From: Paenibacillus hemerocallicola
Lineage (GTDB): Bacteria; Bacillota; Bacilli; Paenibacillales; NBRC-103111
Direction of reading: 5' to 3'
Assembly: GCF_006265175.1 (NCBI RefSeq)
Contig: NZ_VDCQ01000042.1
Span: forward strand, 1 to 64,000
DNA length: 64,000 nucleotides
The notes beneath the pieces are model-generated. The model worked only from the letters and a program-made list of their open reading frames with translations. It was not told the DNA's origin and ran no database searches. Numbering within the stretch: position 1 is the stretch's first letter; every line of letters begins with the position of its first letter. The position numbers and the translations under genes were made by a program. Below are positions 5,965 through 26,594 of this stretch, piece by piece.

Positions 5965-5997
5965 GAAAGCCCGCGGCCATTCGGCAGCGGGCTTTTC
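5965..5997. terminator. Hairpin between convergent genes
   Basis: GAAAGCCCGC and GCGGGCTTTTC form a 10-bp stem with flanking A/T runs, between the end of the giant helicase gene (minus strand, stop at 6085) and the preceding plus-strand operon. Probably the helicase terminator. The rest of 5714-6084 holds no credible gene. Confidence 0.6.
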
Positions 5998-6084: not shown

Positions 6085-9000
6085 CTACGCTTTGTAAACG
6101 ATCCTGCCTTGGTCGTCCGCAAAGGCGAATCCGCGCGTTATGGCGCAAGCGATTCCGCTTCTCGCCGCTTTGTCGAGCGCCGCGCCGGAGCGGACGTAGC
6201 CGAGCAGCTTGACGACTTGCTTGATCAAGTCATCCTCGGGAAGGCTGATCTGCGCGGCCAGAACGGTACGCACCGCATTGGCGATTTCCTCCGGCGGCAA
6301 GTCTTCGGCGTTCCGGCGCTGAGCCTCGTCGGCAGCGATACGCCATGTCGCCCATTGCTCCGGATCGTTCCCTTCCGGCCAGTAAAACTCCGTGCCGTCC
6401 CACGTAGTTGCAGTAAGCCTCATTTTCGCCAGCAGCTCGGTAAAATGCCGGTCAAGCTTAGCCCCCATGCGCGAAATGCCCCAAGCGGTCAGCACGCGCT
6501 TCGCCAGCAAGCCGCGGCTGATCGGTCCTTCCTCGCTCACGACCTTCGCGATCTGCTCGCAAATGATCCGCGTATATTCCGGCGCGTAGAAAGCATCGGT
6601 TCCGGCCGCTATGCTATCGAGCAAGCACGGACGATAAGGCTCCGCATTGTCCGGAAGACCTCCTGTCTGCGGGACGTCCGCGTCGGGCCGACCGGCGCTG
6701 TCCGGTGCCGACCGTCCTCCCGAAGCTGTCGGAGCCGCTGCCGGTTCCGCCGGTTCGCCTCCGGCTGCCGGTTCCGCTGCCGATTCAGACGCAGCACGGA
6801 TTGCCGCTGCGGTGTCGGCTGTCTCGACGCCGCTCACTCTCTCCGCAGCACCCCCGCTCCTGCCGGCGGCTCCACTCCCGCCGCTTGCACGACTGTCGCC
6901 GATACCGGCATCATCGGCATCCGGAGCGGAAGCTTGCACCGTTCGCTCCAGCGCCTGCCTGATCTTGCGGATCTCGGCCCCGCGATTGTCCCACCAGTCC
7001 GGCATCCATAGCCGGTGCAGCCTCCAGCCGAGCTGCTCCAGTACACTGTCCCGCAATATGTCCCGGTCGCGGGCCGTCTTGGCGTTCCGGTACATCAGCC
7101 CGTCGAGCAAAATGCCCAGCCTATACGTTCCGGGCTGCCCGGGATCTTTGACGGCCAGATCGATCCGGTATCCCGACGTTCCGACGTACAGATCGGCCTC
7201 GTAACCAAGCCGCTCCAGCTCGGCCGCCACATTTCGGTGGATATCGGCATTGTCGGAAATGCCGCGCGCCGCCTCGGCGGCAGGCAATGCCTGCTTTCCT
7301 TTCTCCGCATAGTCGAGGAACGCTTTCAGTCCGAGCACGCCCTGCGCGCTCGTCCGGCTGGCGCTCAACTGGTGGGCCTGCAGCGTGGAGAACACGTGCA
7401 TCTCCCGCCTTGCCCTCGATACGGCCACATTGAGACGCCGCCAGCCCCCTTGCCGGTTAAGCGGTCCGAAGTTCAGGCTGACCTTGCCCGCAGCATCCGG
7501 GCCGTAGCCGATCGAGAACAAAATGACGTCCCGCTCGTCCCCTTGCACGTTTTCCAGGTTTTTGACGAATATCGGCTCAGGCAGCTCCGCGATCAGCAGC
7601 TCCAGGTCGGTCTCGCGCTTCAAAGCCTCGTCCAGCAAATCCTCGATCAGCGATTGCTGGATCGAGCTGAATGTCACTACGCCGATGCTGTGCCGGCGAA
7701 GTCGGTCGTCCCTCAGACGGCGCGCGATTTCCGCCACGACGGCCTCGCCCTCGGCCCGGTTTTGCTTCGTCCGCCCCCGGTCGTACACCCCCTCGACGGG
7801 ATTCCACTTGACGCAGGAAACCGGCTCGTCCGGCGACGGGAACGTCATCAGCCTGTTGTCGTAATATTGCGCGTTGCTGAACGCGATCAGGCTCTCATGC
7901 CTGCTGCGGTAATGCCAGGACAAATGCATCTGCGGCATTCCGATGGCGAGGCAGTCGTCCAGGATGCTTTCCAAATCATCGCTTACGCCGTGCTCCTCCT
8001 CCGACTCGTCATTCATTCTGGAGAAAAAGCTGGTCGGCGGCAACTGCTTCGGATCGCCCACGATGACCGCCTGACGACCGCGCGCAAGCGCTCCGACCGC
8101 CTGAGCGGTTGGAACTTGGGACGCTTCGTCGAAAATGACAAGGTCGAATTTGGGACCGGTCGGGTCCAAATACTGCGCGACGGAAATCGGACTCATCAGC
8201 ATGCACGGCGTCAATCTCGGCAGCAGGTGCGGAATTTGCTCGAACAGTCTGCGTATCGATATCGAACGCCCGCCGCTGCGTACGGCGCGCTGCAAGATGC
8301 CCGCCTCGGAGCTTTGGGCGGCTTCCTGCGTCATGTGCGGTACCCGTGCGGCCAGCCTGGCGGCGATTTCCCGCCGGGTCAGCTCTTCGAATACGCGGTC
8401 CGTCTCCGCAAACCGTCCGATCTTCTCCTCGAACAGGCTGCCGGAAAAAGAGCCCAACCGTTCGTCCTTCTCCATAATGAAATTGGCGCAAGCTTTGTAG
8501 AGCCCCCGTTCAAAGGCCGGAACGAGCTGACCGTTCGCAAGCTCGCCACGTTCGTAGGGCAGGATTAACGGAAGAAGGCCCGCGGCCGCCCCTTCGTCGC
8601 GCACTTTGCGCCAAGCGCACCAATTGCGCAGAGCATCCAGGCTTGCTTCCCATACGGCCGCTTTTTGCCTCATGAACCGGAAACGATCTTCTGACTCCGC
8701 CGCGATTACGAGACTCTCCCGATCGACCAGCAGCAGCCGGAACAGCTCCTCCTCGGCGGCCTTCATGCTCCGATACCGCTCCGCCGCCTCCCGGAGCAGG
8801 CTGCTCCGAGCCTCGAATTCCGCTCTTCCGTTACGCAGAAGCTCGGCGAATCGCCGCCTTACTGCCGGGGCTTCCGGACCGAATGAAGCAACGAGCAGAG
8901 CGTTCAGCTCCAACAGCCATTCGTTCGCCGCTTCGACGTCATCCCATCTGCCGTTATCTTCGTCCCACAAATCGCCGCCCAGCAGCGTACTCGCGAACGC

Positions 9001-12000
9001 CCCGGCCTCCCGCAGCTTTTTCTCTTCATCCTGCCAGCGGATCATTCCGCTCAAATGCGCTTTGACGTCCTGCTTGGCGATGCTCTTGCCGGGCAGGACG
9101 AACGACTTGAGCAGCTTGACGATTCTGTTTTGTCCAAGCCATTTCGGCAAAAACCACTCCAGCTCCGTCTTCGTCCATTCCGACAGGGTCAGCGCGGCGT
9201 CGAACCGGAGCGCTTCCGCGGAGAAAACCGAACAAACCCGTCGCCTCGCTTCGTCCCTTCTCCGGCCTTGCTCGACCGCCTTCTTCAGCCGTTTCGCGTC
9301 CTCCTCGGGCTGCGGGGATTCCAGCGTCGCGGGCTTCAAGTCGGGCATGCGCAGCAGGAAATCGCACAACCGCACGAGCCGGTCGCACGCCTCGCCGGTG
9401 TAAGCCTGCGCATCCAGCCGAAGATATTCCGCCGCCTTAGCCAGCGCTTCCCGGCTATCGGACAACGTCGGCGCGTAGCGCCCCAGCGCTTGCTCCACTT
9501 CCGCTTTTAGCGACTGCGAATAAGCGGTGACGCGGGCTTCGCTCCACGGGTGACCCGCGGGACTGCCGCATTCCTCGCCCGCGGCCCGGATTTGGGAAGC
9601 CAGATCCCGCCATACGGAAACGGTCTCCGGCATAAGCCGCTCGATCGCTTCCGGCTCGAAGCGCACGGCGTCCGACTGCATCCCCGCCCGCTCGTAACCG
9701 GCTATCGCCTCATACAAGGAGAACCCGAAAGGCTGCCTCGCATGCAGGGCGGCCACGTACCCGTTCAACTCGCCGCGCAATAGGGATAAACGGTCGGCCT
9801 GAGCTTTCCATTCCTCCGGAGGCATCGTTCTCGGCGCTTCCAATGCCGCATTCAATTGGTCCAGTACGGCCTTCTTCGTGCTTTTGTTGGAATGCAGCTC
9901 CAGGCAATACGGATCCAGACCGATCTTGGCGAGCCGGGTCTGCACGACGGTGAGGGCGGCCATCTTCTCCGCGACGAACAGGACTCGTTTCCCGTTCGCC
10001 AGCGCCGTCGCGATCATATTCGTGATCGTCTGCGATTTGCCGGTGCCGGGCGGACCGTGGAGCACGAAGCTGCACCCTTCCGCCGCCGCCCGGATCGCTG
10101 CCAGCTGGGAGGAATCGGCGCTGACCGGAACGGGTAGCGCGGCCGGATGCGCTTCGTCAAGCGTCGCGTCGGCGCCTTCCTCCGGCTCCCGCAGTCCTTT
10201 CAGCCGGCCGTCCATCAGGCTTGCTACGATATCGTTCTGCGCCAGCTCCCCGGAGCGGGTGCGGATATCGTTCCACATGACGAACTGGCCGAACGAGAAC
10301 AAGCCGAGATAAGCGGTCTCTTCCACGTCCCACCGCGTCATCTGCATGAGAGCGTGACGGAATGCGCCGAATATTTGCTTCAAGTCGATTCCGTTCGCAT
10401 CTTTCGGCAGCGGGTCCAAGCCGCCGATACCGATACCGTAATCCTGGCGCAGCATTTCCAGCAAAGTGATGTTTGCCTGCGGCTCTTCGTCCCGCACGCG
10501 AATGACGTAACCGGCCCGCGACGATTTCTTCAAAATGTCGACGGGAATAAGTACGATCGGAGCGCGTCTCGGCATTTCGCTGACGGGCGACTCGTACCAT
10601 TTCAGCAAGCCGAGCGCCAAGTACAGCGTGTTGGCGCCATTCTCCTCCAGCGCGACGCGTGCGCTCCGATACAGATGAACAAGCCTTTTGTCGAGCTCGG
10701 GCGGACTCAGGTCGGCGCGCAGCCGTTTCTTCGTGAACTCCTCTTTCAGCAGGGCGGCGAGCGGATGACCAGCACCGATCGTCTGGTACAGCTCCGGGCT
10801 GCGCCCGTCGTCCTGCCAATCGCCGGGCTTCGCCATGAGCTGGAATTCCTCCCGCTCGGCAAGCGCATCCTCCAAATCCGCAAGCTGAACCGCCATCAAT
10901 GGAACGCTCGACTTCGACAAACGGAAATTGATCAGCGCATTGCGGAGCGACAAATCGAGCAGCCGCCGTTCCCACAGCTTCTGTCTCGTGATCGGGATCG
11001 ACTCCGCATCGGCCGGCCGCCCCACTACATCCAACAGCTCGGGGGCGGCCGTCTCCGGCAAAGGCCGCACGGGCGTCTGCGAGTCGATCTCCCAGCCTTG
11101 CGGCGTCGCAACGCGCACAGGCAGCGGACGTATCGCACCGGCGCGAGCCCGCCTGACATCGACGACGCAGTCGAACTTGGCCGGGTCGGCCAACCGGGCG
11201 GCGGCCATCGACACCGCCTCCTCGAAGCCGGCCGTGCTTCCTTCGACGAAAGCGGTCGATTCGATAACGCAAATCTCGTGAATACCGGGTGCGATCCGTT
11301 TCGTGAGCAGCGACATGTCGTCCTGTACGCTTTCGGGAAACGTTTCTTCCACGAGCCATAGCCCGACGAAGGCGTGCTTCTCCACGAAAACGAGCAACGG
11401 ATGCAAACCGACCGCCTCCAAACAGGCGGCGTACAGGAGCGACAAATCGAGGCAGTTGCCCATGCGGTGGGCGAACACCGTCTCCGGCAGGCGGACGCGC
11501 TGGCCGATTTGCTCGAAGCTCGGAGGCGCCACGCTGTAGGCGACGCCCCTGTTCTGCAGCGCCGCATAAACCGCCGCCGCCTGGATTTTCGCCCGATTCG
11601 GATCTTTGCTCTGGTAGGCGGTAAAGGACGGGCTTCCGCTCCATTTGCCCAATATATCCGCCGCCTCGCGAACGATCTGCGACACTTGGGGATGATTGGG
11701 CGTAACGAAGGCCGCCGCCATTTCGGGCAGAACGGCTAGCCCGCTCCACTCGTCGAACGCGAGTACCGTAATGGGGGCGCTCGCCTCATAAACCGGCGAC
11801 TGCCCTTGAAGCACGGACAGCTTGAGCATCCCCGTCATCCGTTCGGACAGACCGGCCAAATAAGCGGACGACAGCTGCAGACGGACCGCGCCCAAATCGA
11901 TCGATTGGCCGGCCGGGAGCAGGTCGTACGCGTTGCTCCATTCATAGGCAAACTCCGGCTCGGCATTCAGCCTGACGGTTAGTCCGCGAATATCTTCGGA

Positions 12001-12108
12001 CGTTCTATTGGTCAAGACGATTCGTTTTACGATAGGAACATGATTTTGCTGCATCGCATAATTGACGGTTTCGCTATAGATCCATTCGCAGCTCATTCGA
12101 TCGTTCAA
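6085..12108 (-). CDS. Giant DUF4011 / SF1 helicase / Vsr-like nuclease / DUF3320 protein, candidate antiphage factor
   Basis: About 2007 residues. I start at the TTG at 12108, because GGAGGAG (12117-12123) lies 8 nt upstream; the frame runs open to an ATG at 12165 that has no site. Order of parts: a beta-rich N-terminus; a transglutaminase-like segment (GNCLDLSLLYAACLEAVGL, then KHAFVG) near residues 217-250; a DUF4011 region from about 380; an SF1 helicase core with Walker A GPPGTGKS near 685 and Walker B FDEAS near 1326, then GDPKQLPP; a Vsr/MTES_1575-like nuclease around 1640 (GYRIDLAV, ILLDG); an Ala/Gly/Ser-rich linker at about 1735-1822; and a DUF3320-like C-terminus. Large proteins of this order are linked to phage defence. 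It stands alone in its transcription unit, so if it is a defence system it is a single-gene one. Domain names are from memory of the families. Confidence 0.88.
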   Translation of the reverse strand: MNDRMSCEWIYSETVNYAMQQNHVPIVKRIVLTNRTSEDIRGLTVRLNAEPEFAYEWSNAYDLLPAGQSIDLGAVRLQLSSAYLAGLSERMTGMLKLSVLQGQSPVYEASAPITVLAFDEWSGLAVLPEMAAAFVTPNHPQVSQIVREAADILGKWSGSPSFTAYQSKDPNRAKIQAAAVYAALQNRGVAYSVAPPSFEQIGQRVRLPETVFAHRMGNCLDLSLLYAACLEAVGLHPLLVFVEKHAFVGLWLVEETFPESVQDDMSLLTKRIAPGIHEICVIESTAFVEGSTAGFEEAVSMAAARLADPAKFDCVVDVRRARAGAIRPLPVRVATPQGWEIDSQTPVRPLPETAAPELLDVVGRPADAESIPITRQKLWERRLLDLSLRNALINFRLSKSSVPLMAVQLADLEDALAEREEFQLMAKPGDWQDDGRSPELYQTIGAGHPLAALLKEEFTKKRLRADLSPPELDKRLVHLYRSARVALEENGANTLYLALGLLKWYESPVSEMPRRAPIVLIPVDILKKSSRAGYVIRVRDEEPQANITLLEMLRQDYGIGIGGLDPLPKDANGIDLKQIFGAFRHALMQMTRWDVEETAYLGLFSFGQFVMWNDIRTRSGELAQNDIVASLMDGRLKGLREPEEGADATLDEAHPAALPVPVSADSSQLAAIRAAAEGCSFVLHGPPGTGKSQTITNMIATALANGKRVLFVAEKMAALTVVQTRLAKIGLDPYCLELHSNKSTKKAVLDQLNAALEAPRTMPPEEWKAQADRLSLLRGELNGYVAALHARQPFGFSLYEAIAGYERAGMQSDAVRFEPEAIERLMPETVSVWRDLASQIRAAGEECGSPAGHPWSEARVTAYSQSLKAEVEQALGRYAPTLSDSREALAKAAEYLRLDAQAYTGEACDRLVRLCDFLLRMPDLKPATLESPQPEEDAKRLKKAVEQGRRRDEARRRVCSVFSAEALRFDAALTLSEWTKTELEWFLPKWLGQNRIVKLLKSFVLPGKSIAKQDVKAHLSGMIRWQDEEKKLREAGAFASTLLGGDLWDEDNGRWDDVEAANEWLLELNALLVASFGPEAPAVRRRFAELLRNGRAEFEARSSLLREAAERYRSMKAAEEELFRLLLVDRESLVIAAESEDRFRFMRQKAAVWEASLDALRNWCAWRKVRDEGAAAGLLPLILPYERGELANGQLVPAFERGLYKACANFIMEKDERLGSFSGSLFEEKIGRFAETDRVFEELTRREIAARLAARVPHMTQEAAQSSEAGILQRAVRSGGRSISIRRLFEQIPHLLPRLTPCMLMSPISVAQYLDPTGPKFDLVIFDEASQVPTAQAVGALARGRQAVIVGDPKQLPPTSFFSRMNDESEEEHGVSDDLESILDDCLAIGMPQMHLSWHYRSRHESLIAFSNAQYYDNRLMTFPSPDEPVSCVKWNPVEGVYDRGRTKQNRAEGEAVVAEIARRLRDDRLRRHSIGVVTFSSIQQSLIEDLLDEALKRETDLELLIAELPEPIFVKNLENVQGDERDVILFSIGYGPDAAGKVSLNFGPLNRQGGWRRLNVAVSRARREMHVFSTLQAHQLSASRTSAQGVLGLKAFLDYAEKGKQALPAAEAARGISDNADIHRNVAAELERLGYEADLYVGTSGYRIDLAVKDPGQPGTYRLGILLDGLMYRNAKTARDRDILRDSVLEQLGWRLHRLWMPDWWDNRGAEIRKIRQALERTVQASAPDADDAGIGDSRASGGSGAAGRSGGAAERVSGVETADTAAAIRAASESAAEPAAGGEPAEPAAAPTASGGRSAPDSAGRPDADVPQTGGLPDNAEPYRPCLLDSIAAGTDAFYAPEYTRIICEQIAKVVSEEGPISRGLLAKRVLTAWGISRMGAKLDRHFTELLAKMRLTATTWDGTEFYWPEGNDPEQWATWRIAADEAQRRNAEDLPPEEIANAVRTVLAAQISLPEDDLIKQVVKLLGYVRSGAALDKAARSGIACAITRGFAFADDQGRIVYKA

Positions 12109-12690
12109 CGGTACAACTCCTCCTGCTCGCGTAAATGCCGGGCCCGCCGACAGACAAGCCCGCATAAAGGTTTCATAGCTGTATCATAGCATTATATTCG
12201 CGCCGTTGCGCGGTTTTTCGACCCGATGGGCGAAAAGGCGCCGGTTTGCGACAGCGTGAAAGGGCGTAGGGAAGCAACGGGAGCAGGTTATCGGCAAGAG
12301 GAGCGGGAACGCGGTAGGAAAGGAGGTGGGCCGGGTACACAAGCGCGACGGGACCGCATGCAGCGCTAGCGGTACGCGGGCAAGAGCCTTGCACGAGGAA
12401 ATTTTTGCAACCGGAATGCTATTGCCGGGTCCTCCCTTCGCTTCTGGAACAAAAAGTTCCGATATTATCGGAAAAGGCCGGCATATCGGGGCCTAGCGGA
12501 ACGATTTTTTCCGCTAACCCGTTCCGTTCCTGCCGCTCCGAGTTAGATTTGTTTTCACCGAACGGCCGACCGCCGTCATGCAGCGCAACACCGCGCGCCG
12601 GGAGCTTTGCACGGTTCGATAACGGACCTGAATGTTCCGTTTGGCCCTGGAAATCCGATGAGTAGCCGGAAGCTCGTCCCCAACCGACTA
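12109..12690. other. Non-coding region upstream of the helicase gene
   Basis: No credible gene in either strand. It contains the helicase promoter region and, at 12494-12516, one more copy of the window-wide palindrome (TAGCGGAA-N7-TTCCGCTA). Short inverted repeats such as GGAACAAAAAGTTCC are also present. Confidence 0.6.
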
Positions 12691-13090
12691 CCTGTAAAAT
12701 ATGAGGCTGTTGAAAAAGTCTGCAAAGAGAGGAAGCGCCGGGAGACAAGAGGCGGGGGAATGCGCTCCACATCCGTTAAAATCGTGTTGTTTATATGATT
12801 TTAGCGGTTACAACACGATTTTAAAGTCAACCGCTTCGCTTTCCGCACATTTCCCCCACCTCTTTTTGTATGACAATTCTCTCTTTTTGACTTTTTCAAC
12901 AACCTGAAAATATGCAGTTATATTTAGGAAAAACAAGAAATTCGCTGAAATAACTGGAAAACATGCAGGCAAATTACCGCCAGATCGTAAAATGAGCGAA
13001 AACGAACGAGAATAACTGTATATTTTCCAGTTCTCTACCATAGCGAGGCAAGTGTTCACCGAAATAACTGCATGTTTTCCAGTTCGTTCG
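12691..13090. repeat. Second copy of the ATGCAGTT repeat family, split by a MITE
   Basis: CCTGTAAAATATG (12691-12703) continues after the MITE as CAGTT...GGAAAAA...AACTGGAAAACATGCAG and ends with further copies of AATAACTGTATATTTTCCAGTT-like units up to about 13085. Rejoining the two parts gives CTGTAAAATATGCAGTT, one base different from the uninterrupted copy at 3704-3720. Confidence 0.75.
12704..12906. mobile_element. 203-bp MITE with 17-bp terminal inverted repeats and 8-bp target duplication
   Basis: The left end AGGCTGTTGAAAAAGTC (12704-12720) and the complement of the right end (12889-12905) agree in 16 of 17 bases. AAAATATG flanks it on both sides (12696-12703 and 12907-12914), consistent with an 8-bp target-site duplication. 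The inside is one long imperfect hairpin, including a perfect 15-bp inverted repeat (12776-12790 with 12810-12824). It has no coding capacity, so it would be moved by a transposase encoded elsewhere. Ends of this kind occur on DDE insertion sequences of Firmicutes; the exact family cannot be set from here. Confidence 0.85.
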
Positions 13091-13398: not shown

Positions 13399-15138
13399 TT
13401 AGATGCCCATCGGGATCGTAAACATCTCCGGCGCCGCCGAATACGACACGACCAGCTCGTCTCCCGACGCCAGCGTATACAGATTGTTGGCCGGCAGCCC
13501 GGACGAGCCCCCGCCGACGATGGTCTGATCCGTCCCCCGCTTGAACAGCACCTGCGTCACGGTTCCTCCCCGTACGGCCACTTGCTGGAGGAGTCCGCCG
13601 TTATTCGTATACGTAAACGGCGTGGCGCCGACGGCAATTCCCGCCCTGGGCTTTTTGACATATAGAAACTGGTTGGCATCATGGTCGAAAATATCGCGGA
13701 TCGTCGAATCTTCCCCGTTGTCGTACACCCCGCCGGCCGACGTATTCCAATAATTGACGGTCAGCTTCTCGATCCGCGTATGACGGGCGCCCGCATCGGT
13801 CTGAATGCGCTCATGCAAGCCGCCGCTGACCTCGGCATTCAGCGAGCCTACGGCGAAATGCAGCTTTCTCGCCGAATAGCAATTGATCAGCTTCGTAAAT
13901 TGCCCTTGGTCCATCACGTCGTCGGTCCCGTTTCCCTCGAAGCCGAGTCCGCTGAACGAATTGAATCGCGAGCCCGGGGCGACGACGACGCCGTGGATGC
14001 CGATCGCCTCCGAGGTGCCGCCGACGAACGTATTCTGGTCGCCGTCGGCAATCCGGATGCCGATGCCGGTCAACCCCTCGATGATCGGGTTGATAAACGT
14101 GTTGCAGGTCGAGCGGAGATTGCGCGACGGCGATTTGCCGATATGGATGCCGGTATACGGTCTATTCGTCATCGGCTGCTCGTTGACCGAGCACGTCACG
14201 CTTTCGAATACGCTGGCCACCGTCCAGAGCAGCTTGAGCGCGGTCCCGGTCGCCGAATTCGCTTCGCGCAAATTGACGTTGCGGATGACGAGATGCGACG
14301 CGTTCTCCGTGAACAATAAGTCGGTGATTCCGGCGTTTCCTTCGATCGTCAAGTCCTCGACGGATATTCCATAGATGACGGAAGGGCCGAACGGACTCCC
14401 GTCGATCGTAAACGCTCTGCCCGAGCCGGTATATTTCAGAACGGTATCGTGCTTGCCCGCCCCCCGGACCGACAAATACGAATACCCCCAGTTCGGGCTC
14501 GCGGATGTGGCGCACACGCCCTTCGGCAGTACGATCGATCGTCTGCCGCTGGATACGGCATACGCGATCGCCGCGGAGAGCGGCACGCCGTTGTCGGTCG
14601 TGCCGTCCATGATCGCCCCGAACCACGTCGGATTGACCGCGCCGCCGGACACCCTGACCCAGCAGCCGTTCCCCGTCGGATTCGTCTCGCCCCCGCCCGC
14701 CAGAAAGGCCGGCAAGCCGGCCACGGTTCCGCTCCACGGAACGGTAGCGCTGATGACAACCCCGCCGTTGTGACCCGACTTGGGCGCAGAAGCTTTCCAG
14801 ACGAATTCGCCGCCGCCGTTCGCGTCCATCGGCAAGGAAAGGGCCGACGCCCCGCCGGGGTAAGTGGCAAATACGGACAGTACCCTGACGATTTGCCCGT
14901 CGTCCAGCAAGGTCGTATCCAGCGCGAGGAGAGCGGTGACGGAAGGAACGGCTATGATGCAGTCATCGTCGGTTTTTTTGTCCTTTGCATAAGCGGTTCG
15001 CCCTCCCGGAATTCCGGCGGCGGCCAGCGCGACCCCCGCCATCCCTATGGAGGCCAACAGCTTTCTGCGGCTCGTACGGACCGCCGGAGCCTGCGGTCCG
15101 ATCCGCTCTTGCTCTTCTTGCTCGAATCGGTTATCCAT
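13399..15138 (-). CDS. Tat-exported right-handed beta-helix (pectate-lyase-fold) protein
   Basis: 579 residues from the ATG at 15138, which has GGGAGGG 7 nt upstream; the frame is open to 15339 without support. A twin-arginine signal (SRRKLL at 23-28, then a hydrophobic stretch ending AYA near 51) indicates folded export. The middle holds many short beta-strand and turn repeats with the GxxIRIAD / NTFVGGTS / NSFSGLGF pattern of parallel beta-helix enzymes of the pectate lyase superfamily (also seen in GH55-like and phage tailspike proteins). It is the last gene of a four-gene operon with a glycosidase and two solute-binding proteins, so it likely cuts or binds an extracellular polysaccharide. 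The substrate is unknown, and catalytic residues cannot be assigned by eye. Confidence 0.82.
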   Translation of the reverse strand: MDNRFEQEEQERIGPQAPAVRTSRRKLLASIGMAGVALAAAGIPGGRTAYAKDKKTDDDCIIAVPSVTALLALDTTLLDDGQIVRVLSVFATYPGGASALSLPMDANGGGEFVWKASAPKSGHNGGVVISATVPWSGTVAGLPAFLAGGGETNPTGNGCWVRVSGGAVNPTWFGAIMDGTTDNGVPLSAAIAYAVSSGRRSIVLPKGVCATSASPNWGYSYLSVRGAGKHDTVLKYTGSGRAFTIDGSPFGPSVIYGISVEDLTIEGNAGITDLLFTENASHLVIRNVNLREANSATGTALKLLWTVASVFESVTCSVNEQPMTNRPYTGIHIGKSPSRNLRSTCNTFINPIIEGLTGIGIRIADGDQNTFVGGTSEAIGIHGVVVAPGSRFNSFSGLGFEGNGTDDVMDQGQFTKLINCYSARKLHFAVGSLNAEVSGGLHERIQTDAGARHTRIEKLTVNYWNTSAGGVYDNGEDSTIRDIFDHDANQFLYVKKPRAGIAVGATPFTYTNNGGLLQQVAVRGGTVTQVLFKRGTDQTIVGGGSSGLPANNLYTLASGDELVVSYSAAPEMFTIPMGI

Positions 15139-15173
15139 TTTATTCCCTCCCGGATTCGTTGCTTGCTCGGATC

Positions 15174-17234
15174 TTATTCGATATCCTCGAGTACCGCCAT
15201 CGCGTGCAGCCCGACCTCGGGAATCGTAAACACGATGCCGTCCTCCTCTTCCGAGAAAGGGAGCGGCTCCAGCTGCGGCGCCAAGTAGACGCGGGCGGGC
15301 TTCCTCCGGATGCGCACCGTAATATTGTAGAGCGGCCATATTTCTTCAATGAACGTTTTGGAGCCGCCTGCCTTCTCCTCGCGCACCTGCACCAGATGAA
15401 CGATCCACCGGCTTCCTTGGCGCATCAGGTTGACCTCCACGCCGATCGGCGCATCGACCTCGATCAGCGGCTTCGGGCGTAGCAGCTTGTAGCCGTCCAT
15501 ATAGATCCGGCGAAGCCAAGGCGAGCCCGTCTTCCAGTACGACGCCTCGATGGGGGCGGATATATACAGACACGCGCCCTTGCCGTAAGGATGTAACGTA
15601 ATGGCCGGATCGCCGGTCTTTACAGCCGGATGGGCGTGCTGATGGTATACGTGGCGGTGCGTCTTCGTTTCCATCGCAGGCTCCATATAAACGGACAGCA
15701 GCCGCGCGCTCGCGGAAGGACGAACCTTCAGCACCGGCGCATTCGTGCCCTTGAGGAGCACCGGCATATCCGGAACGTCGGGAAACAGGTCCCGATCCAA
15801 GCCGGACATGTACGCCACGCTGTATCTGGACGTATCGTCAAAGTCGGCGCCGAACACGTCGGCCAGCCCGAAATTCGCTTTTCGGATTCCGTCCTCTCCG
15901 TACAAGGACGTTCTATGCGTCGCAATCAGCAGGCCGCCGTCGCGTACGAACTTCCGTACCGCTTCCTCCGCCTCCGGCGATACGCAAGCCTGGTCCGGCA
16001 TTGCAAGCACGGCATACTTGTCGAGGCGCTTAAGCAAATCTCGCTCCGACATCACGTCGAAATGAACGTTCCCTTCGATCAGCATCCGGTTGATTCCGTT
16101 CAAACCGTCATCGGCGTGGTTCGGAAGCGAAGTCGCTTCGAGCATGCGCCTGTTGCCGACGCCGTGCAGCACCGCCATATCGGCAACACTCTCCGCCCCG
16201 AGCAGCCATTCCTCGCGTTCCCGGACGAATGCATTCGCTTCCTTCATCGCATCCACGACCGGCGGGGGCAGCGCGCCTCCCAGCGCACCCGACGGGAGCG
16301 GCACGTGGCCGAAACTGATCGAACCGCCCCCGGATACCGCAATCGCCGCGGCGGCCGTAAGCGTAGCGGCGGGCGCAAGCGTCCACTCCCCCCAGCTGCC
16401 CATCTCGCTCGGCATCATCAGCTCGAACGGCTTGCCCTTCGTCCGCTTCCATTTGGCCAGCAGGCTTCCGTACAAATAAATCGGCGGATGAAATTCCGAG
16501 GTCAAGTAGTCCGCATGCTCATCCGGCTCCATATGGGCAAACGCCAAATCCCCGGCGTGATTCCAGCCGATCTGCAGGTTCGGATCGAGCTTTTTCAGCC
16601 GTCCGGTTATAAAGCGCAAAAAGTCGGCGCGCATGTCCCGTTGGAACTGCTGCCATCTGCGCAGCTCGACGGATCCCGGTTGCGGAGAGACCGGCGGAGT
16701 TTGCCCGTACTTCTCCACATACCATTTCCGGCAATAATCGCAATGGCATGAGGACGGCCAGACGTACGTAATATCGAAGAAAAATCCGTCCACCCCATAC
16801 CGCTCCGCAATTTCCGTCAGTTGGGCGGCGACGTAATCCCGGTACGGGGAATTGAGACAGAGCAGGTCGTAAAAGCCGAACGCATTCGTCACCGGCGCGC
16901 CGTCTTTATCCCGCTGACGGTAGTCGGGGTTCGCGCCCGCGACGTAGCTGTTCAGTCCGACGTTGTAATAGGCGATCAAGCGAATGCCGTAACGCTGCGC
17001 CTCCCTTACCGCTTCCTCGAGCAAATCTTTGCCCAGCTTCGCGTTTTTCTTTCCGATGCGGGTATCGTAATACGATGTCCCGAAAGCGTCCTTGGTCATG
17101 AACGTCAGCGTCTGCATGCCGGCCTCCGCCATATCCCGCATATAACGCGGGACATCGAACGCGATTTCCGGTACCGCTTCCCCGATATGGAAATCGAGCA
17201 GCCCTCTTCGAAGTGTCTTATGATACAAGCTCAT
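15174..17234 (-). CDS. Glycosidase of the GHL6 / GH42-like alpha-beta barrel type
   Basis: 686 residues; start at 17234 with GGAGAG about 8 nt upstream. An N-terminal (beta/alpha)8 barrel includes GVDGFFFDITYVW, where D154 is the likely catalytic acid of the strand-end motif, followed by a CHCDYC cysteine cluster at 163-168. A beta-galactosidase-type trimerisation/GATase-like domain (about 360-550) and a C-terminal beta domain follow. This layout fits the hypothetical glycosyl hydrolase 6 group rather than a characterised enzyme. No signal peptide is visible, so it should act in the cytoplasm on an imported oligosaccharide. The downstream beta-helix gene begins 35 bases later and the upstream binding protein ends 78 bases before. 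Substrate unknown. Confidence 0.8.
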   Translation of the reverse strand: MSLYHKTLRRGLLDFHIGEAVPEIAFDVPRYMRDMAEAGMQTLTFMTKDAFGTSYYDTRIGKKNAKLGKDLLEEAVREAQRYGIRLIAYYNVGLNSYVAGANPDYRQRDKDGAPVTNAFGFYDLLCLNSPYRDYVAAQLTEIAERYGVDGFFFDITYVWPSSCHCDYCRKWYVEKYGQTPPVSPQPGSVELRRWQQFQRDMRADFLRFITGRLKKLDPNLQIGWNHAGDLAFAHMEPDEHADYLTSEFHPPIYLYGSLLAKWKRTKGKPFELMMPSEMGSWGEWTLAPAATLTAAAAIAVSGGGSISFGHVPLPSGALGGALPPPVVDAMKEANAFVREREEWLLGAESVADMAVLHGVGNRRMLEATSLPNHADDGLNGINRMLIEGNVHFDVMSERDLLKRLDKYAVLAMPDQACVSPEAEEAVRKFVRDGGLLIATHRTSLYGEDGIRKANFGLADVFGADFDDTSRYSVAYMSGLDRDLFPDVPDMPVLLKGTNAPVLKVRPSASARLLSVYMEPAMETKTHRHVYHQHAHPAVKTGDPAITLHPYGKGACLYISAPIEASYWKTGSPWLRRIYMDGYKLLRPKPLIEVDAPIGVEVNLMRQGSRWIVHLVQVREEKAGGSKTFIEEIWPLYNITVRIRRKPARVYLAPQLEPLPFSEEEDGIVFTIPEVGLHAMAVLEDIE

Positions 17235-17312
17235 CCGCTAAAACTCTCCATTCCTTCTGTTTGGTCCGAATCCGAATCCGAGTCCGGCATCAATCGCCCC
17301 GCGCCTCGCATT

Positions 17313-18656
17313 CTAGTTCCGCTTCGCTTCCGCCACGGCCTTGTCCGCCTCTTCCGCCGCTTCGCGGAGCGCCGTATTCAGATCGACAGTACCTTTGACA
17401 ATATCGGGAATCCGCTTTGTCAGCATTCCTTCCACGGATAGCTGGTATTTGGATTTGGACGCGATCGGCGCAGGCTTGTTGTAGAAAATCGCGTTCCAAT
17501 TTTTATCCTTGAAGGCGGATTCCTGAGCATACGCTTTCTTCACCTGATCGTCCTCGATGACGGGCATGATGCCTTGCTTGGAGAAATTCATTTGCTGCTC
17601 CGGAGACGCCAAATATTTGATCACTTCCATCGCCGCATCCTTATTCGGAGAAATCGAAGTAATGCCGAAGACGAACGGTGCCATCTGCGAGCCGATGCCG
17701 GGCTTATCCTTGAAGGTCGGCAGCGCGACGAGATCCCACTGGATTTTCTCCATGTCTTTCGGAACGGCGAACGGAAATTGCGAATGGAAGGCGAACATCG
17801 CAAGCTCCTGGCTGTTCGTAAGCTCCAGCCGGTACGGGACGGCCTTCAAGGCCGTCACCCGCTCCTTGTAGCCCTGATCCGCGGCGGGCTCCAGAAAATA
17901 AGCCGAGAGCATTTTTTTCCATGCGTCTCCCGTAAACGTCGCCTTCTCCGCGGCCGGGTCCAAATATGGCTGCGAGAGCTGGTTGTTTCCGAGCAAATGG
18001 GGAGCCGATGCGGCGAAGCCGAGGTACATTTTGTCCCCTTCCTTCCGCGTCAGCTTCCTGGCCAGCTCTATCGTATCGTCCCAGAACATGCCGTCCTTCG
18101 GGTAGGGGACGCCGAACTTGTCGAAAAGACCTTTGTTGTAATACATCACCTGTACCGTATTGGTGACCGGCAGCGCATGCAGCTTGCCTCCGCCGGAGCT
18201 GCGGATTCCGTCGATCAGCGTCTGCTGGAACGTCCCGAGATTCACCCCATGCTTTTTGACCAGCTCGGTCATATCGTACTGAAGACCGGACGTTTCCGAC
18301 AGCTGGGGGTAGTAGGCGATGGATTGGTACAAAATATCGATCTGCTGCTTTTGCGCCAGCAGCTCGGAGATCGATTTGCCCTGTCCGTGCGGTATATATT
18401 TGATCGTGTAGTCCGGAAATTTTTTGCGAAGCGCGTTGCCGTACTGACCGTTAAACATGTCTTCATTGTCGCCGCCATTGGAATGAATGACGATCTCGAC
18501 CGGTTCTCCGGGCTTGGCCGTATGTTGTCCGTCTCCTTCTTTGCCTGCGGAGCCGCTTCCGGCACCGCCCGTCCCGGCTCCGCCGTCTGTGCCGCCGCAC
18601 CCGGACAAAACGGCAAACGCCGTTAAACTGATCAAAGCCAGCTTCTTGTCAGCCAT
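17313..18656 (-). CDS. ABC transporter sugar-binding lipoprotein (family 1 SBP)
   Basis: 447 residues. A lipoprotein signal with lipobox LSGC (C20) is followed by a Gly/Ser-rich tether and an extracellular solute-binding protein of the carbohydrate uptake (CUT1) type. AAGGGGGA is placed well for the ATG at 18656. It lies 18 bases after another binding protein. It shares clear segments with the binding protein at 29376 (for example PYPKDGM followed by DDTIELA, and the DLNTALREA tail), so the two are paralogues. No permease or ATPase gene lies in the operon or anywhere else in the window; it must use components encoded elsewhere. The ligand is probably an oligosaccharide handled by the downstream glycosidase. 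Confidence 0.88.
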   Translation of the reverse strand: MADKKLALISLTAFAVLSGCGGTDGGAGTGGAGSGSAGKEGDGQHTAKPGEPVEIVIHSNGGDNEDMFNGQYGNALRKKFPDYTIKYIPHGQGKSISELLAQKQQIDILYQSIAYYPQLSETSGLQYDMTELVKKHGVNLGTFQQTLIDGIRSSGGGKLHALPVTNTVQVMYYNKGLFDKFGVPYPKDGMFWDDTIELARKLTRKEGDKMYLGFAASAPHLLGNNQLSQPYLDPAAEKATFTGDAWKKMLSAYFLEPAADQGYKERVTALKAVPYRLELTNSQELAMFAFHSQFPFAVPKDMEKIQWDLVALPTFKDKPGIGSQMAPFVFGITSISPNKDAAMEVIKYLASPEQQMNFSKQGIMPVIEDDQVKKAYAQESAFKDKNWNAIFYNKPAPIASKSKYQLSVEGMLTKRIPDIVKGTVDLNTALREAAEEADKAVAEAKRN

Positions 18657-18674
18657 CGAATGTCCCCCTTGAGA

Positions 18675-20411
18675 CTATTTGTGCAAGGATGATCCCCGCT
18701 TCCGATACCATTCGTTCACCTCATCCGTCATCTCCCGGCCGCCTGCCGATTTCCACTGCTCCGCGAACCGGTCGAATTCCTCGACAGGCAGCAGCCCGAC
18801 GACGATTTTCGTAAACGTTTCCGACTGCAGCCTGCCCAGCGCTTCGCTTTTGCGCTGCGTGATCGGCAGCGGGAGCGACGTGAACCGCTCGCGTTGATAC
18901 AGATCGTTTCTGCGGTAATAGTCCGCGACGGACAACGACCCGCCTTTGCTGAACATGTAGTTCCACATCCAGCCGTCAGCCCCGCCGTCGCGTAAATAAG
19001 TCTCGATTCTTTGCAGAACGCCCTTGTCCTCCGGATTCAGTCCGGAGCGGTCCTTCGTCTCCATCGCTTCGATAATCCGCAGGCTTTCGTCGACATTTTT
19101 ATACTGCTTGGCCAAAGAGACCACGGCCATTTTCCATACCGGATTATTGTCTCTGGACTGGTTGAATTCGTAATACGACTCCTCCGAGTCGTTCTCGTAG
19201 TAGGTCTCGATCCAGAAGTCGAGCAGCCGCAGCAATGCTTCCGGCTGCTTCGCCTCTTTGCTGACCACCCAATAGCCGCTTACATCCAAGGGCACCTGCG
19301 GGCGCGCCTTCCTGTCGTCGACCGAGGGAAGCGGATACGCTTTCCATTCCATGGACGGGTCCCGCTTCTTTGCCTGCTGCAGAGGAAAGGAGCCCGCGAA
19401 CGGAGAACCGTAGAACATCCCGATCTTGCCGAACGCGATGGACTCGTATACGCCCGCTTCATCCTTGATGCCGAAGTCCGGGTCGATTTGACCGGACGCA
19501 TACATCTCTCGCAGAAGGGCCAGCGCTTCCTTCATCTCCGGCTGAACCGTTCCGTAGGCCAGCTCCTTGCCCGACTCGATCCAAATGTTGCGGTAGGCAT
19601 GCAAGCCGTTGAAGAAGCCTGCGGCCAGGTTGAAATTCCGATCCAGAGCCAGACCGTATGTGTCGCGTATTCCGTTCCCGTCGGGGTCCGAGGCCGTAAA
19701 TGCCGAGCTGATCGTCAGCACGTCCCCGATCGACCGGGGCTCCGGCAAATTCAGCTTCTTGAGCCAGTCCGTCCTGACGTGAAGCACCGACGCCGCTTCC
19801 GTAAGCGTGCTCGTCCAAGGAATGGCCATCAGCCTGCCGTCTATCGTCGCCAACGAGATCGGCTCGGGCCCTCTGTCGTCCAGAAGCTTCTTGGCGCGAT
19901 CGGAAACGTTCGCGGCATATACGTCCGTCAAGTCGGCTATCAATCCGCTCTCGGCCAATTGCTGCAGTTGGGCGCCGTTAACCCGAAAAAAATCGGGAAT
20001 ATCGCCGGAGGCGATCATCAGGTCCAGCTTCCGGTTGTACTGGCCGCCATCGTCGGACCATAACGTCTCGACCCGGATACCGAGCTGCTTCTCGTAAGCG
20101 CGTGTCCACGGATTGTTATTGTAGGAATCTCCCGGCGCGAATTTCATGCCCGGCTCATTGACCCGGATCGTCGTCAGCGTAACCGGAGGATCATAACGGA
20201 CATAGTCGCGCGAACCTCTGCCGCCGTTTCCCGGAGCTTCCGCCCCCCGGTGCGGCGCACCGGACAAACTGCCGCTGCTCTCCGCTTCTTGAGCAACGCG
20301 TTCCGAAGCGGCTTCACATGCGCCCAACAGAAAGACAGGCAGCAGCAACATGACGGCGCCCGACTTCCGGCACACCTTTGAGGCGTTCATCAGCCGATTG
20401 CTTTTTCGCAT
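18675..20411 (-). CDS. Large solute-binding lipoprotein of the LplA type
   Basis: 578 residues from the ATG at 20411 (GGAG 5 nt upstream); the track frame extends to 20546 but those codons lack a site. A basic N-terminus and hydrophobic core end in the lipobox LGAC (C32). The body matches the large LplA-like family 1 binding proteins common in Paenibacillus (NPWTRAYEKQLGIRVE, SGDIPDFFRV, PDGNGIRDTYGL). It heads the operon of binding protein, second binding protein, glycosidase and beta-helix protein. The AraC-type sensor gene starts about 235 bases away on the other strand and is the likely regulator. As with its neighbour, no permease genes accompany it. Confidence 0.88.
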   Translation of the reverse strand: MRKSNRLMNASKVCRKSGAVMLLLPVFLLGACEAASERVAQEAESSGSLSGAPHRGAEAPGNGGRGSRDYVRYDPPVTLTTIRVNEPGMKFAPGDSYNNNPWTRAYEKQLGIRVETLWSDDGGQYNRKLDLMIASGDIPDFFRVNGAQLQQLAESGLIADLTDVYAANVSDRAKKLLDDRGPEPISLATIDGRLMAIPWTSTLTEAASVLHVRTDWLKKLNLPEPRSIGDVLTISSAFTASDPDGNGIRDTYGLALDRNFNLAAGFFNGLHAYRNIWIESGKELAYGTVQPEMKEALALLREMYASGQIDPDFGIKDEAGVYESIAFGKIGMFYGSPFAGSFPLQQAKKRDPSMEWKAYPLPSVDDRKARPQVPLDVSGYWVVSKEAKQPEALLRLLDFWIETYYENDSEESYYEFNQSRDNNPVWKMAVVSLAKQYKNVDESLRIIEAMETKDRSGLNPEDKGVLQRIETYLRDGGADGWMWNYMFSKGGSLSVADYYRRNDLYQRERFTSLPLPITQRKSEALGRLQSETFTKIVVGLLPVEEFDRFAEQWKSAGGREMTDEVNEWYRKRGSSLHK

Positions 20412-20645
20412 CGTTCTCCATCTCCTCTTTGGTATCCCATCCCCCCCGAAGTCCGTTTGCCGGCACCTGTAGAATAGCCGACCCGCGTACGCTACGGAAG
20501 CCGCAAGTTCCCATCTTTCCTGCCCGGTTTGGGAAAAAGCGAACAAATGTGAAACGGGGAATAATTGATGAAAATCAGTTATGGTTTAAATTATATATAA
20601 TGTTTTATATAATAAAAATGAAAACATGCAAGGGGGAGATCGGTT

Positions 20646-23024: not shown

Positions 23025-26000
23025 TTAATACCGATCCTTGGCATAATCCGGTCCTTTATACGGTTCCGCCTTCGCCAGCAATTCGCCCAATTTGCCCATG
23101 TTGACGGCGACTCCGTCGTCCGGGTCAAGCTCGAGCCGTTTGTCCGCCATCCGGCGCAATTGCCCGTCGTATGCCCGGAGCTCGTCCAGCTTCAGGCCGA
23201 GCGATTTCCGCTTCTTCTTGGCGACGCTTCTCCGCTCGGCCGTTCCGTCTCCCGCGATAGTCTCGTCGAGCGACTTCAGCTCCTCTTCGAGCCTTAGCAG
23301 TCGCCGCTGCACGTAATCGTCGCGGATTGTCGAAAGCGTCGTTCGATCATAACGGTGCATATAGACAAGGCAGGCAAAAGCTTTATGCTTGCCCGAGCTG
23401 AACAGCCAGTAAATCGGCTTTTTCCTGTAAGCCAGCGCATGGTCGCGGAAGAAGCTTGCCGCAAAGTACGACCCGATCGCCGCCCTGGCGGACTCGCCGT
23501 CTTTCTTGCCGAGCGATTCGGCGATATATTCCACATTTTCAGCCAGACGTTCTGATCCGAAAGCCGCTTTGACGAACCCGATAAACCTCGATGCGATGTC
23601 GTCGTCCTCTTCCCCATGACCGCTCGGCAAGAGCGGAACGATATTGTCGCGAACGGCGGAAAACGTCCGGTAGCGGTCCGGGTCGAAAACGCCTCCGGCG
23701 TATGCAAGCCCCGCCGCATCGAGAGAGTACCTGCCGAACATGCAGCCCGCCGCATAGGAGAGGAACGATTCGATATCCTTCTCCCTGTCCGCATCGGCAA
23801 TCGTAAGCTCGTCATCGTCTACGGCCGGCGATACGGCATGCCCGAGTCCGTAACGGTCGATGAAGATGGCATTGAGCCGTTCCTCGCTTTTCTTCAGCAG
23901 CTCCCGCTCTCGACGTTTGAACGACGCCCATTCGGCAAAAGCATCCTCCACGAGGCCGGACCCCGTTCTGAACGTCAGCAGCGGATGGGTCGAAAATTGC
24001 CACGATCTTTCATAAAAATCCCAATCCCGCTTGGCGATGTCGATGCATCGCTTGCATAGCGATACGATCGGCTCGCGACGGTCCGGGATCAGCGCGGGAA
24101 CGGCCATAATCTTGTTCAGCTTGAAATCGAGCGTCGGAGCCAGAGCGCGCAAATAATATTGCGAGACGGCCGTATTCAGCAGCGCCAGCGCGACATGCAG
24201 ATCGGATTCGTCGCGGAAAAACCCCATAGCCCCTTTGGCATCGAACATAAATCCGCCGGGAGCGTACCTTGCACCGAATTTTCCCGAGCTGACCGTCGGG
24301 AAGGTGATTCCTTCCCTGAACCCGTAGTCGCCGTTGTAGTTGTGGGAGCGAATCCGGCCGGTATCCGGATCGACGTTGCTTCTGATGGCGGCACCATCGC
24401 TTGCCCAATCGACTACTTTCGTCGAATTGCCGTACCATTTCCGGTGCGCCCCTCCTTTCAGATAAGGGAACCATCGCTTGCCCGATTGCACCGCTTCCTC
24501 GTTGTTCCGGATGCCGAAGCCTATGCGAGAGAACGAAACCTCGTGCCATTCCCGCAAAAACTTGTCGTTATCCGCCGTAGTCATGCCTTCCCTGGTCGCG
24601 ATCAGCCCGGCCAGCCGGGGACCGTCAAACAGCCGCAGCGCCTTTTGGTCCAGCCAGTATACGATCAGATTGCCCGGAACTTTCCCGAACGTCTCGGCAT
24701 GCGCGGAATATCTGTAGCCGACGGAAGGATCGCGTACGGCTTCCCTTGCTTTCACGGGCTGCATGTGTGCCCCGACAAAATCGGACAGCTTCACGTATTC
24801 CCCGCTCGCTCCGATTTTGCCGTTAGATAACGTAAACGCGCAGATCGGTACGGTCGCATCCTCGAACGCCGAATATTCGAGCTGGATCAGGCTGCTTATC
24901 GTCGTATCGCGGAGGATCCGCTTCCTGAGCGGTTCGTACGCCGCTATGAACATCCATACGAACGGAGTCATGAACCCGAGTTGCCCGTTCGGCATCGCCC
25001 GGCGAAAGCACATCTCCACAAAAGCGGAGAACAGGTCGGACTTCGTCTCGGGATAATGGTTTTTCAAGAAGCCGGACAACCGATCGTTCATATAGGCGCT
25101 TCCCATAAAGGGGGGATTCGTGACGATAACCGGATACGACGCGTTCAGAAGATCCGCCTGCTTCAGCAGCTGCGGCAGCAGCTCGGCCCATTTCCGTCCG
25201 GAACGCTCGTCGCCCGAGCGCACGGCCGGATTGTCCTTGATTTGCCGCAATCTTTGTTCCAGGAAGCATTTGTCGTATTCCTCCGCTTGGATCAAAGAAC
25301 CGAACGTCTTGGCGTTCCTGAACCGCTCGACGAATCTTTTCGTCGCCCGAACATTTTCCACGCCGCTTTCCCCGGCCAAATAACCGATATCCCGGTCGTC
25401 CAGCCGATCCGTTTCCTGAATGGAGGCCAAGTGGAGCGACAATCCGTCTCTCTCTATGCGCTCGAGGAAGCTACGGTCGTATTGCAGCGCTTTCATGACG
25501 ACCGAGAAACAAGCGAGCCGGCATGCCGTGTCATCGATATCGAGCCCGTACAAATTATGCTCCAGAATCAGCCGCGGAATCCGATGCTCCGAATAACCGC
25601 GCCTGCGGTAAATTTCGAACAATACGTCGAACAGGTACACCAGTATATGTCCGCTGCCCATCGCGGGGTCGAAGCATTTGAGCTGCTCCGGCTTCAGTTC
25701 CGGATCCGCGCGGGGAGCGTACTGCCGCTCCAAGTCTCCCTCCGGCTGCGGACGTTCGAGGTAAAACTCCCATCCGCGGAGCAATTCCCTGTCTTCCGGA
25801 TGCGATTCGAGCCAATATCGTCCGAGCGAGTTTTGCACCATATAACGGACGATCCATTCCGGTGTGAACAACTGGGTGGCGACCGGAATTTGTGCGGGCG
25901 CATATTTTTTCTTCGCTTTGATGGCGCGGTCTTTCTGTTCCGTCATGTAATATTGGTACAGCCAGCCGACGATCTCGACCCTCTTCCAGACGGATTCCGG

Positions 26001-26594
26001 CATCGCTTCCGTATCGGTCAACCGCCCGACGAAACCGTCCTTCCCCAACATTCCGTCCGGAAGCAGCAGCTCCAGATCGTCTCCGTCCGCTTCGAACAAA
26101 AACGAAAGAACCCGGTTCAAATGGCCGCACAGCCGCAGCAGCAAATAGCGGAACAGCCGTTCCGTATCGCGGTTAGCCAGAAGCTCGTTCACGAGCCTCT
26201 TGTCGACTTCCCAGCCGACCGACAACGGTTCCCGGACCATGTCCGGCTGCCTGCGATCCGTATCGTTGGAGGAGAGCACCCCTGCCTTCGCCGGAAGATA
26301 GCCGTTTACCTCCATAAACCGCAGCGCGGTGAAACGATTGAACCAGGTGCAGGCCGCGTCCTCCACGACCCGATCGTACCCGTCTTCCCGCATGCGGCGA
26401 AGGATCGACTCTCTTTGCCCGGTCTCCACGACGGTTAGCGGCCTGCCGTCGAAATGGACGACATCCCGACTTTCGCGCCGAGCTTTCTTGATGCTATGCG
26501 GCGTTATTCCGATTTTGTGCGCCTTTTCCCCGATTTTCCGGATCAGCTCTCTCCGTGCGCTCATCGCGAAGCTTCTCCATGCCGTTTTATTCAT
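23025..26594 (-). CDS. pglX: BREX-type adenine-specific DNA methyltransferase PglX, orphan
   Basis: 1189 residues, the usual length for BREX-1 PglX (about 1200). The N-terminus (MNKTAWRSFAMSARREL) and the QLFTPEWIVRYMVQNSLG segment are typical of PglX. SAM-binding motif I is FDPAMGSGHI (308-317) and the catalytic motif IV is NPPF (493-496), so N6-adenine methylation is expected. The C-terminal half carries the target recognition region and ends in coiled, charged helices. PglX normally works with BrxA, BrxB, BrxC, PglZ and BrxL; none of these is in the window. The gene is convergent with the AraC gene (46-bp gap) and follows a DUF1232 gene by about 120 bp. It may be a relic of a lost island or a stand-alone methyltransferase. 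Confidence 0.88.
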   Translation of the reverse strand: MNKTAWRSFAMSARRELIRKIGEKAHKIGITPHSIKKARRESRDVVHFDGRPLTVVETGQRESILRRMREDGYDRVVEDAACTWFNRFTALRFMEVNGYLPAKAGVLSSNDTDRRQPDMVREPLSVGWEVDKRLVNELLANRDTERLFRYLLLRLCGHLNRVLSFLFEADGDDLELLLPDGMLGKDGFVGRLTDTEAMPESVWKRVEIVGWLYQYYMTEQKDRAIKAKKKYAPAQIPVATQLFTPEWIVRYMVQNSLGRYWLESHPEDRELLRGWEFYLERPQPEGDLERQYAPRADPELKPEQLKCFDPAMGSGHILVYLFDVLFEIYRRRGYSEHRIPRLILEHNLYGLDIDDTACRLACFSVVMKALQYDRSFLERIERDGLSLHLASIQETDRLDDRDIGYLAGESGVENVRATKRFVERFRNAKTFGSLIQAEEYDKCFLEQRLRQIKDNPAVRSGDERSGRKWAELLPQLLKQADLLNASYPVIVTNPPFMGSAYMNDRLSGFLKNHYPETKSDLFSAFVEMCFRRAMPNGQLGFMTPFVWMFIAAYEPLRKRILRDTTISSLIQLEYSAFEDATVPICAFTLSNGKIGASGEYVKLSDFVGAHMQPVKAREAVRDPSVGYRYSAHAETFGKVPGNLIVYWLDQKALRLFDGPRLAGLIATREGMTTADNDKFLREWHEVSFSRIGFGIRNNEEAVQSGKRWFPYLKGGAHRKWYGNSTKVVDWASDGAAIRSNVDPDTGRIRSHNYNGDYGFREGITFPTVSSGKFGARYAPGGFMFDAKGAMGFFRDESDLHVALALLNTAVSQYYLRALAPTLDFKLNKIMAVPALIPDRREPIVSLCKRCIDIAKRDWDFYERSWQFSTHPLLTFRTGSGLVEDAFAEWASFKRRERELLKKSEERLNAIFIDRYGLGHAVSPAVDDDELTIADADREKDIESFLSYAAGCMFGRYSLDAAGLAYAGGVFDPDRYRTFSAVRDNIVPLLPSGHGEEDDDIASRFIGFVKAAFGSERLAENVEYIAESLGKKDGESARAAIGSYFAASFFRDHALAYRKKPIYWLFSSGKHKAFACLVYMHRYDRTTLSTIRDDYVQRRLLRLEEELKSLDETIAGDGTAERRSVAKKKRKSLGLKLDELRAYDGQLRRMADKRLELDPDDGVAVNMGKLGELLAKAEPYKGPDYAKDRY

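Follow-up and report, generated by a model that had tools for sequence, protein, structure and literature searches.

A stand-alone protein of the named anti-phage family ProA from Paenibacillus hemerocallicola carries a predicted transglutaminase-like domain and a degraded nuclease site

Analysis of a 64,000-nucleotide stretch of the Paenibacillus hemerocallicola genome (contig NZ_VDCQ01000042.1, positions 1 to 64,000; hereafter the window) identifies the gene at 6085-12108 as a stand-alone member of the anti-phage family ProA, in which a predicted transglutaminase/PNGase-like domain carries an invariant Cys-His-Glu triad and a Vsr-like nuclease fold has an eroded active site. In our estimate the chances are nearly even that the protein is a helicase-gated peptidase-like (or amidase) effector which keeps its nuclease fold in a non-cutting form. 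This is the most likely of the explanations considered here because the helicase motifs are intact, the triad is invariant and the nuclease site has failed. The initial annotation of this region, made from the letters alone, had described a one-gene defence candidate of 2007 residues with the order DUF4011-helicase-Vsr-DUF3320. The open reading frame (ORF) is indeed single and uninterrupted, on the minus strand, which that annotation had left unstated (the plus-strand frame is full of stops), and a Pfam search recovers DUF4011, AAA_11/AAA_12, MTES_1575 and DUF3320 in this order with scores far over their cut-offs (Table 1). Residues are numbered throughout on the 2026-residue form of the protein (P0001).

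The earlier domain list passed over the first approximately 380 residues, which include the likeliest effector domain. In the AlphaFold model (predicted local distance difference test score 89) these residues form an immunoglobulin (Ig)-like domain and a transglutaminase/PNGase-like fold, and Cys238, His264 and Glu302 of the latter are present in 103 of the 103 scored proteins that have the transglutaminase-like domain. Judged from sequence and model, residues 135-350 appear to carry, in the core topology, the Cys-His-Asp/Glu triad of the transglutaminase-like superfamily. The match to a transglutaminase-like profile is 87.5% (one of the 30 transglutaminase rows in that comparison, L217, is read out of frame), the order of the secondary structure elements also fits, and the fold matches 3kd4 and 3esw. 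With the Pfam profile Transglut_core the domain stays under the curated cut-off (13.2 versus 23 bits). In a Foldseek search with the whole N-terminal model the best matches are Ig-like, and transglutaminases appear at ranks 6, 7, 11 and lower with E of about 0.001 and poor superposition; the fold evidence for the peptidase-like part comes from a separate comparison, in which 2 of the 50 matches listed cover that part. No solved structure related by sequence to the N-terminal part was found, the single match (E 0.31) being taken as chance. A HEPN domain was also sought in the window protein, and the Pfam search gave none. Some relatives extend further ahead of the Ig-like part (L053, L062, L083 and L101); DUF4145, which we take to be HEPN-like, is seen in three and TerB_N in one of the 10 proteins scanned. 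This suggests that such extensions are further interchangeable effectors or sensors.

A Vsr/MTES_1575-like nuclease motif had been read in the same chain, implying that the protein works as a nuclease. Fold and family profile are borne out, but the active-site set of the relatives, D...E-x-D...H, is incomplete: D1669 and D1688 are kept while Leu1686 and Arg1693 replace the Glu and the His. The nuclease, at first sight the obvious effector, was therefore demoted, and the implied mechanism finds no support in this branch. All 29 relatives that lack the peptidase-like domain have the Glu, as do 12 of the 103 that possess it (near-copies counted). The Glu occurs in none of the 78 readable relatives found with the window protein as query, a search that gave the best 80 of 146 and hence the nearest ones. 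In total, four residues fixed at 90-100% in Glu-bearing relatives, the Glu and the His among them, are lost in the window protein, and no near-invariant acid or base replaces them among the alignment columns displayed. For this comparison the proteins were grouped into peptidase-bearing without Glu (90), peptidase-bearing with Glu (12) and peptidase-free (29), L179 being omitted; the first two groups are set by the Glu itself, so that, for these two, only columns other than the Glu are informative, and for this residue only the third group is. L145 and L146, within the Glu-less branch, retain the nuclease His. On its aligned residues, the Vsr-like domain of this branch has lost its usual active site. 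We found no earlier publication of a nuclease-degraded, peptidase-intact branch in the literature covered, which was without most subscription papers and bioRxiv.

The central part of the protein is a superfamily 1 (SF1) helicase, Upf1/SMUBP2-like by sequence, with a variable insert of about 500 residues between motifs I and II. Its Walker A and Walker B motifs, both already reported in the initial annotation, are invariant in 78 of 78 aligned proteins, the window protein included, and the other SF1 motifs are nearly so. These 78 remain from 84 entries after removal of the duplicates L130, L132 and L137, the more distant L138, L071 (a copy of L070) and L109 (start cut). The helicase motifs are the best-conserved section, with 36-39% of their columns conserved at 98% or above. 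Such conservation would suit an alternative in which helicase or translocase activity alone displaces phage replication or transcription complexes and the peptidase-like and nuclease-like domains are scaffolds; a Cys-His-Glu triad kept in all 103 proteins is, however, unexpected for a scaffold, and we regard this alternative as improbable. The C-terminal tail matches winged-helix folds.

In the helicase-gated peptidase or amidase reading, DUF4011 and the SF1 helicase would engage invading or replicating nucleic acid with the assistance of the winged helices, and this ATP-driven engagement would free or activate the N-terminal transglutaminase/PNGase-like domain. With protein as its substrate, the latter may then work as a cysteine peptidase or amidase, by which the infection or the infected cell would be halted, and the Vsr-like domain would be retained for a structural or DNA-binding role. 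What we infer in this scheme is the trigger, the peptidase activity with its target, and the dependence of defence on the peptidase-like domain.

The window protein scores 2270.3 bits against the NCBIfam equivalog NF058533, 'anti-phage protein ProA' (cut-off 1500), its residues 35-1992 matching all 1903 profile positions. The proposal of a one-gene defence candidate is thus right in kind and is not new, since the family already bears an anti-phage name, which is the curator's. The same family takes in proteins whose nuclease Glu and His are both intact (L165, 2330 bits; L180, 2324; L186, 2224; L184 of Sinorhizobium, 2193), whereas the window protein belongs to a branch without both; the five peptidase-bearing proteins tested, four with the Glu and one without, all exceed the cut-off. 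Because both kinds do so, the single name ProA conceals a split between nuclease-intact and nuclease-degraded members. ProA is possibly the 'Prometheus' of DefenseFinder, an equation inferred from the name alone and unproved: no definition tying the two was found, the accessible parts of PMC12629846, PMC12390725 and PMC12447246 only using 'Prometheus' as a system name, and nothing on the naming of ProA was found in the accessible part of the DefensePredictor paper (PMC13092281).

Among other known systems, Hhe (NF042953, PADLOC PDLC02194) shares DUF4011, the SF1 helicase and the MTES_1575 nuclease fold, but the 833.4 bits of the window protein lie under the Hhe cut-off of 2000, and in L188 and L189, both annotated as Hhe, no peptidase domain is seen and the nuclease Glu and His are intact. 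The PADLOC phage defence candidate PDC-S37 matches with 1279.6 bits over residues 398-2005, a match that begins at DUF4011 and leaves the peptidase-like part uncovered. Similar in plan are the giant HEPN-transglutaminase-SF1 helicase-Vsr proteins with a winged helix-turn-helix (Microbacterium MTES_1575), which likewise join a transglutaminase-like peptidase, SF1 helicase, Vsr and winged helix-turn-helix in a single chain. According to the accessible text of their description (Biol Direct 2013, PMC3710099), protein cleavage has been proposed for them as an additional line of defence; they have a HEPN part, which was not found here, and their Vsr DNase is treated as active, whereas the active site here is degraded.

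Single-protein defence is supported by the NCBIfam equivalog, by PDC-S37, by a patchy distribution, by the lack of a constant partner and by defence genes near relatives. The ProA cut-off is exceeded in 10 of 98 genomes within the family and in 2 of 5 within the genus, P. hemerocallicola itself being counted each time (among the 10, G084 is without the N-terminal part). In the nearest copy-bearing genome, G003, DNA-level homology is confined to the gene (6125-12125), and about 35 kb separate the ProA copy from the genes homologous to its neighbours in the window. In G003 no more than 0.5 kb lies between the gene that ends at window position 5628 and the PglX-like gene behind it (at 23025 in the window); in the G004 stretch examined neither ProA nor a PglX-like gene comes after the former. 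The sugar-gene block 13405-20546 is on other contigs in both genomes. The site of the gene thus varies among relatives. ProA copies are also found on plasmids, and in Bacteroidota inside a mostly Bacillota clade. The absence of a partner gene, claimed from the window, extends to the relatives, where the commonest adjacent gene family occurs in 7 of 81 loci (an approximate count, another large ORF having been taken as ProA in a few loci, including L051, L078, L084 and L111). Beside 16 Paenibacillaceae copies, type I restriction-modification, Wadjet type III JetA-D, Lamassu LmuB, SoFic and a ZorD/DpdE-like helicase are among the matches listed.

At 1e-20, 166 PADLOC models matched among 128 neighbour proteins versus 20 among 85 controls; these figures count models, not proteins, 25 of the 166 are listed, and 18 of the 20 control matches are PglX, type IIG or DrmMI models, presumably one protein. 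The 128 were scanned out of 153 neighbours, leaving out L051's own ProA (the neighbours of L051 had been taken around the other large ORF) and 24 genes of L134-L136. Few in number and unmatched by genome, the controls are 85 of 86 proteins drawn from five same-genus loci and from a distant section of the window; the PglX of the same variable site is among them.

The history of the two domains was followed on a tree of 63 proteins built from DUF4011 and helicase columns only, the columns of both traits being excluded. On it the peptidase-like domain requires a single change, a gain (support 100 in the Shimodaira-Hasegawa-like approximate likelihood-ratio test), and the Glu is lost twice, each time among peptidase-bearing proteins: at the root of the window protein's clade, whose sister L165 (G524) has the Glu intact, and in L179. 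A more careful 52-row tree, from which most long branches were removed, yields identical change counts. This fits a gain of the peptidase first and a loss of the nuclease afterwards, only where the peptidase is present. The 63 proteins were obtained by thinning 133 at 55% identity and comprise 33 peptidase-bearing without Glu, 9 peptidase-bearing with Glu and 21 peptidase-free, all 21 with Glu; the 133 hold near-copies (for example L070/L071, L145/L146, L194/L196 with L186, and L048/L164) and include L080_1, a fragment of a split ORF, which is excluded from the tree and from the final count of the triad. DUF4011 matches outside the own genome were 22, of which 18 were retrieved, the other four lying in frames of 97-400 amino acids. 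L179, on plasmid pGFJ1 of Acinetobacter soli, is a Glu-less ProA-like protein on a separate branch which matches profile positions 1-1710 of 1903 only and adjoins a divergent AAA protein and toxin-antitoxin genes. The ProA copies L177 (G019), L036 and L080 are broken into several ORFs and are apparent pseudogenes or assembly errors.

Several points weigh against a helicase-gated peptidase with a dead nuclease. The chance that both Glu losses fall within the peptidase-bearing 41% of the tree length is 0.17, and with only two loss events we therefore do not claim a link between the gain and the loss. Asp1669, Asp1688 and Asp1700 are still invariant or nearly so in the 78-protein alignment, and the window protein retains Asp1702 and Arg1705. 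These residues favour the chief rival explanation, in which the Vsr-like domain still cuts DNA, its metal site being altered (Asp1669, Asp1688, Asp1700), and the transglutaminase-like domain serves for regulation or structure; the loss of the four fixed residues and the lack of a new near-invariant acid or base in the displayed columns make it possible but, on balance, unlikely. Further, the accessible part of PMC10250203 has a DUF4011 gene, taken here as a DUF4011 gene only, as core in P. aeruginosa, where it flanks the defence hotspot cDHS1. Together with the Upf1/SMUBP2-like helicase sequence, this would suit a housekeeping DNA-repair or RNA helicase. Such a role is, however, hard to reconcile with the patchy occurrence of ProA, the end of G003 homology at the gene borders, the plasmid and cross-phylum copies, the defence genes beside relatives and the curated anti-phage name, and we consider it very improbable.

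The ORF stays open upstream of the TTG at 12108, back to an ATG at 12165; the TTG is preferred as start because AGGAGGAG sits 8 nt upstream. The terminators said to flank the gene are weak, terminator-like sites numbering 10 against 9.3 expected from shuffles, while the repeats are real. The inverted repeat GGCTGTTGAAAAAGTC marks an element resembling a miniature inverted-repeat transposable element (MITE); a 15-mer of this repeat has 25 occurrences across the genome, against 0 for the reversed control. A dispersed 17-mer, AACTGGAAAACATGCAG, has four window copies with at most 2 mismatches (3702, 12952, 13016 and 13068; 0 expected in shuffles). No structured RNA of a known Rfam family reaches the gathering threshold in or near the gene; the window's sole match is a c-di-GMP-I-GGC riboswitch at 58126-58222 on the minus strand (59.7 bits, gathering threshold 59). 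A PglX-like/type IIG methyltransferase at 23025-26594 (and 26717-27424), adjoining a DUF1232 gene, is a second defence-type gene at the same variable junction; a PADLOC scan of it together with 9 window neighbours gave no other match.

Table 1. Features of the ProA-like gene and its surroundings in the window.
Feature	Position	Strand	Residues	Details
proA-like gene	6085..12108	-	2007 (2026 if ATG at 12165)	TTG start; NCBIfam NF058533
Shine-Dalgarno AGGAGGAG	12117..12124	-		8 nt upstream of TTG at 12108; read from sequence
Ig-like beta domain	11761..12096	-	about 24-135	
Transglutaminase/PNGase-like domain	11116..11763	-	about 135-350	
Triad codon Cys238	11452-11454	-	238	in transglutaminase/PNGase-like domain
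Triad codon His264	11374-11376	-	264	in transglutaminase/PNGase-like domain
Triad codon Glu302	11260-11262	-	302	in transglutaminase/PNGase-like domain
DUF4011	10450..10965	-	401-572	PF13195, 163.6 bits (cut-off 22.2)
SF1 (Upf1-like) helicase	7336..10128	-	about 680-1610	AAA_11, AAA_12
Walker A GPPGTGKS	10033-10056	-	704-711	
Walker B FDEAS	8119-8133	-	1345-1349	
MTES_1575 (Vsr-like) nuclease fold	6949..7236	-	1644-1739	Pfam, 95.3 bits (cut-off 38.2)
Lost Glu site	7108-7110	-	Leu1686	in nuclease fold
Lost His site	7087-7089	-	Arg1693	in nuclease fold
Ala/Gly/Pro/Ser-rich linker	6616..6933	-	about 1745-1850	by eye; varies among relatives
DUF3320 and winged-helix tail	6088..6597	-	about 1857-2026	PF11784, 66.5 bits (cut-off 25), residues 1857-1904
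Hairpin AAAGCCCGC/GCGGGCTTT, possible terminator	5966..5996	unassigned		3' of stop; spotted by eye; loop too long for terminator scan
MITE-like element	12704..12906	unassigned		upstream of gene; not part of system

Since one NCBIfam equivalog name spans intact and degraded nuclease sites, an annotation-based assignment of a DNA-cutting mechanism may be wrong for this branch. We find it plausible, though less likely than not and with more doubt than for the window protein itself, that a major ProA branch has switched its effector, so that a helicase sensing foreign nucleic acid gates a cysteine peptidase or amidase in the same chain and the ancestral nuclease persists as a DNA-binding module that no longer cuts. 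Should the peptidase-like domain prove to be the effector, the gene would constitute a single-gene, helicase-gated protease system. If the switch is true, this branch of ProA would amount to an innate immune sensor that consists of one protein and works through a protease, occurring chiefly in Bacillota, with members in Bacteroidota too.
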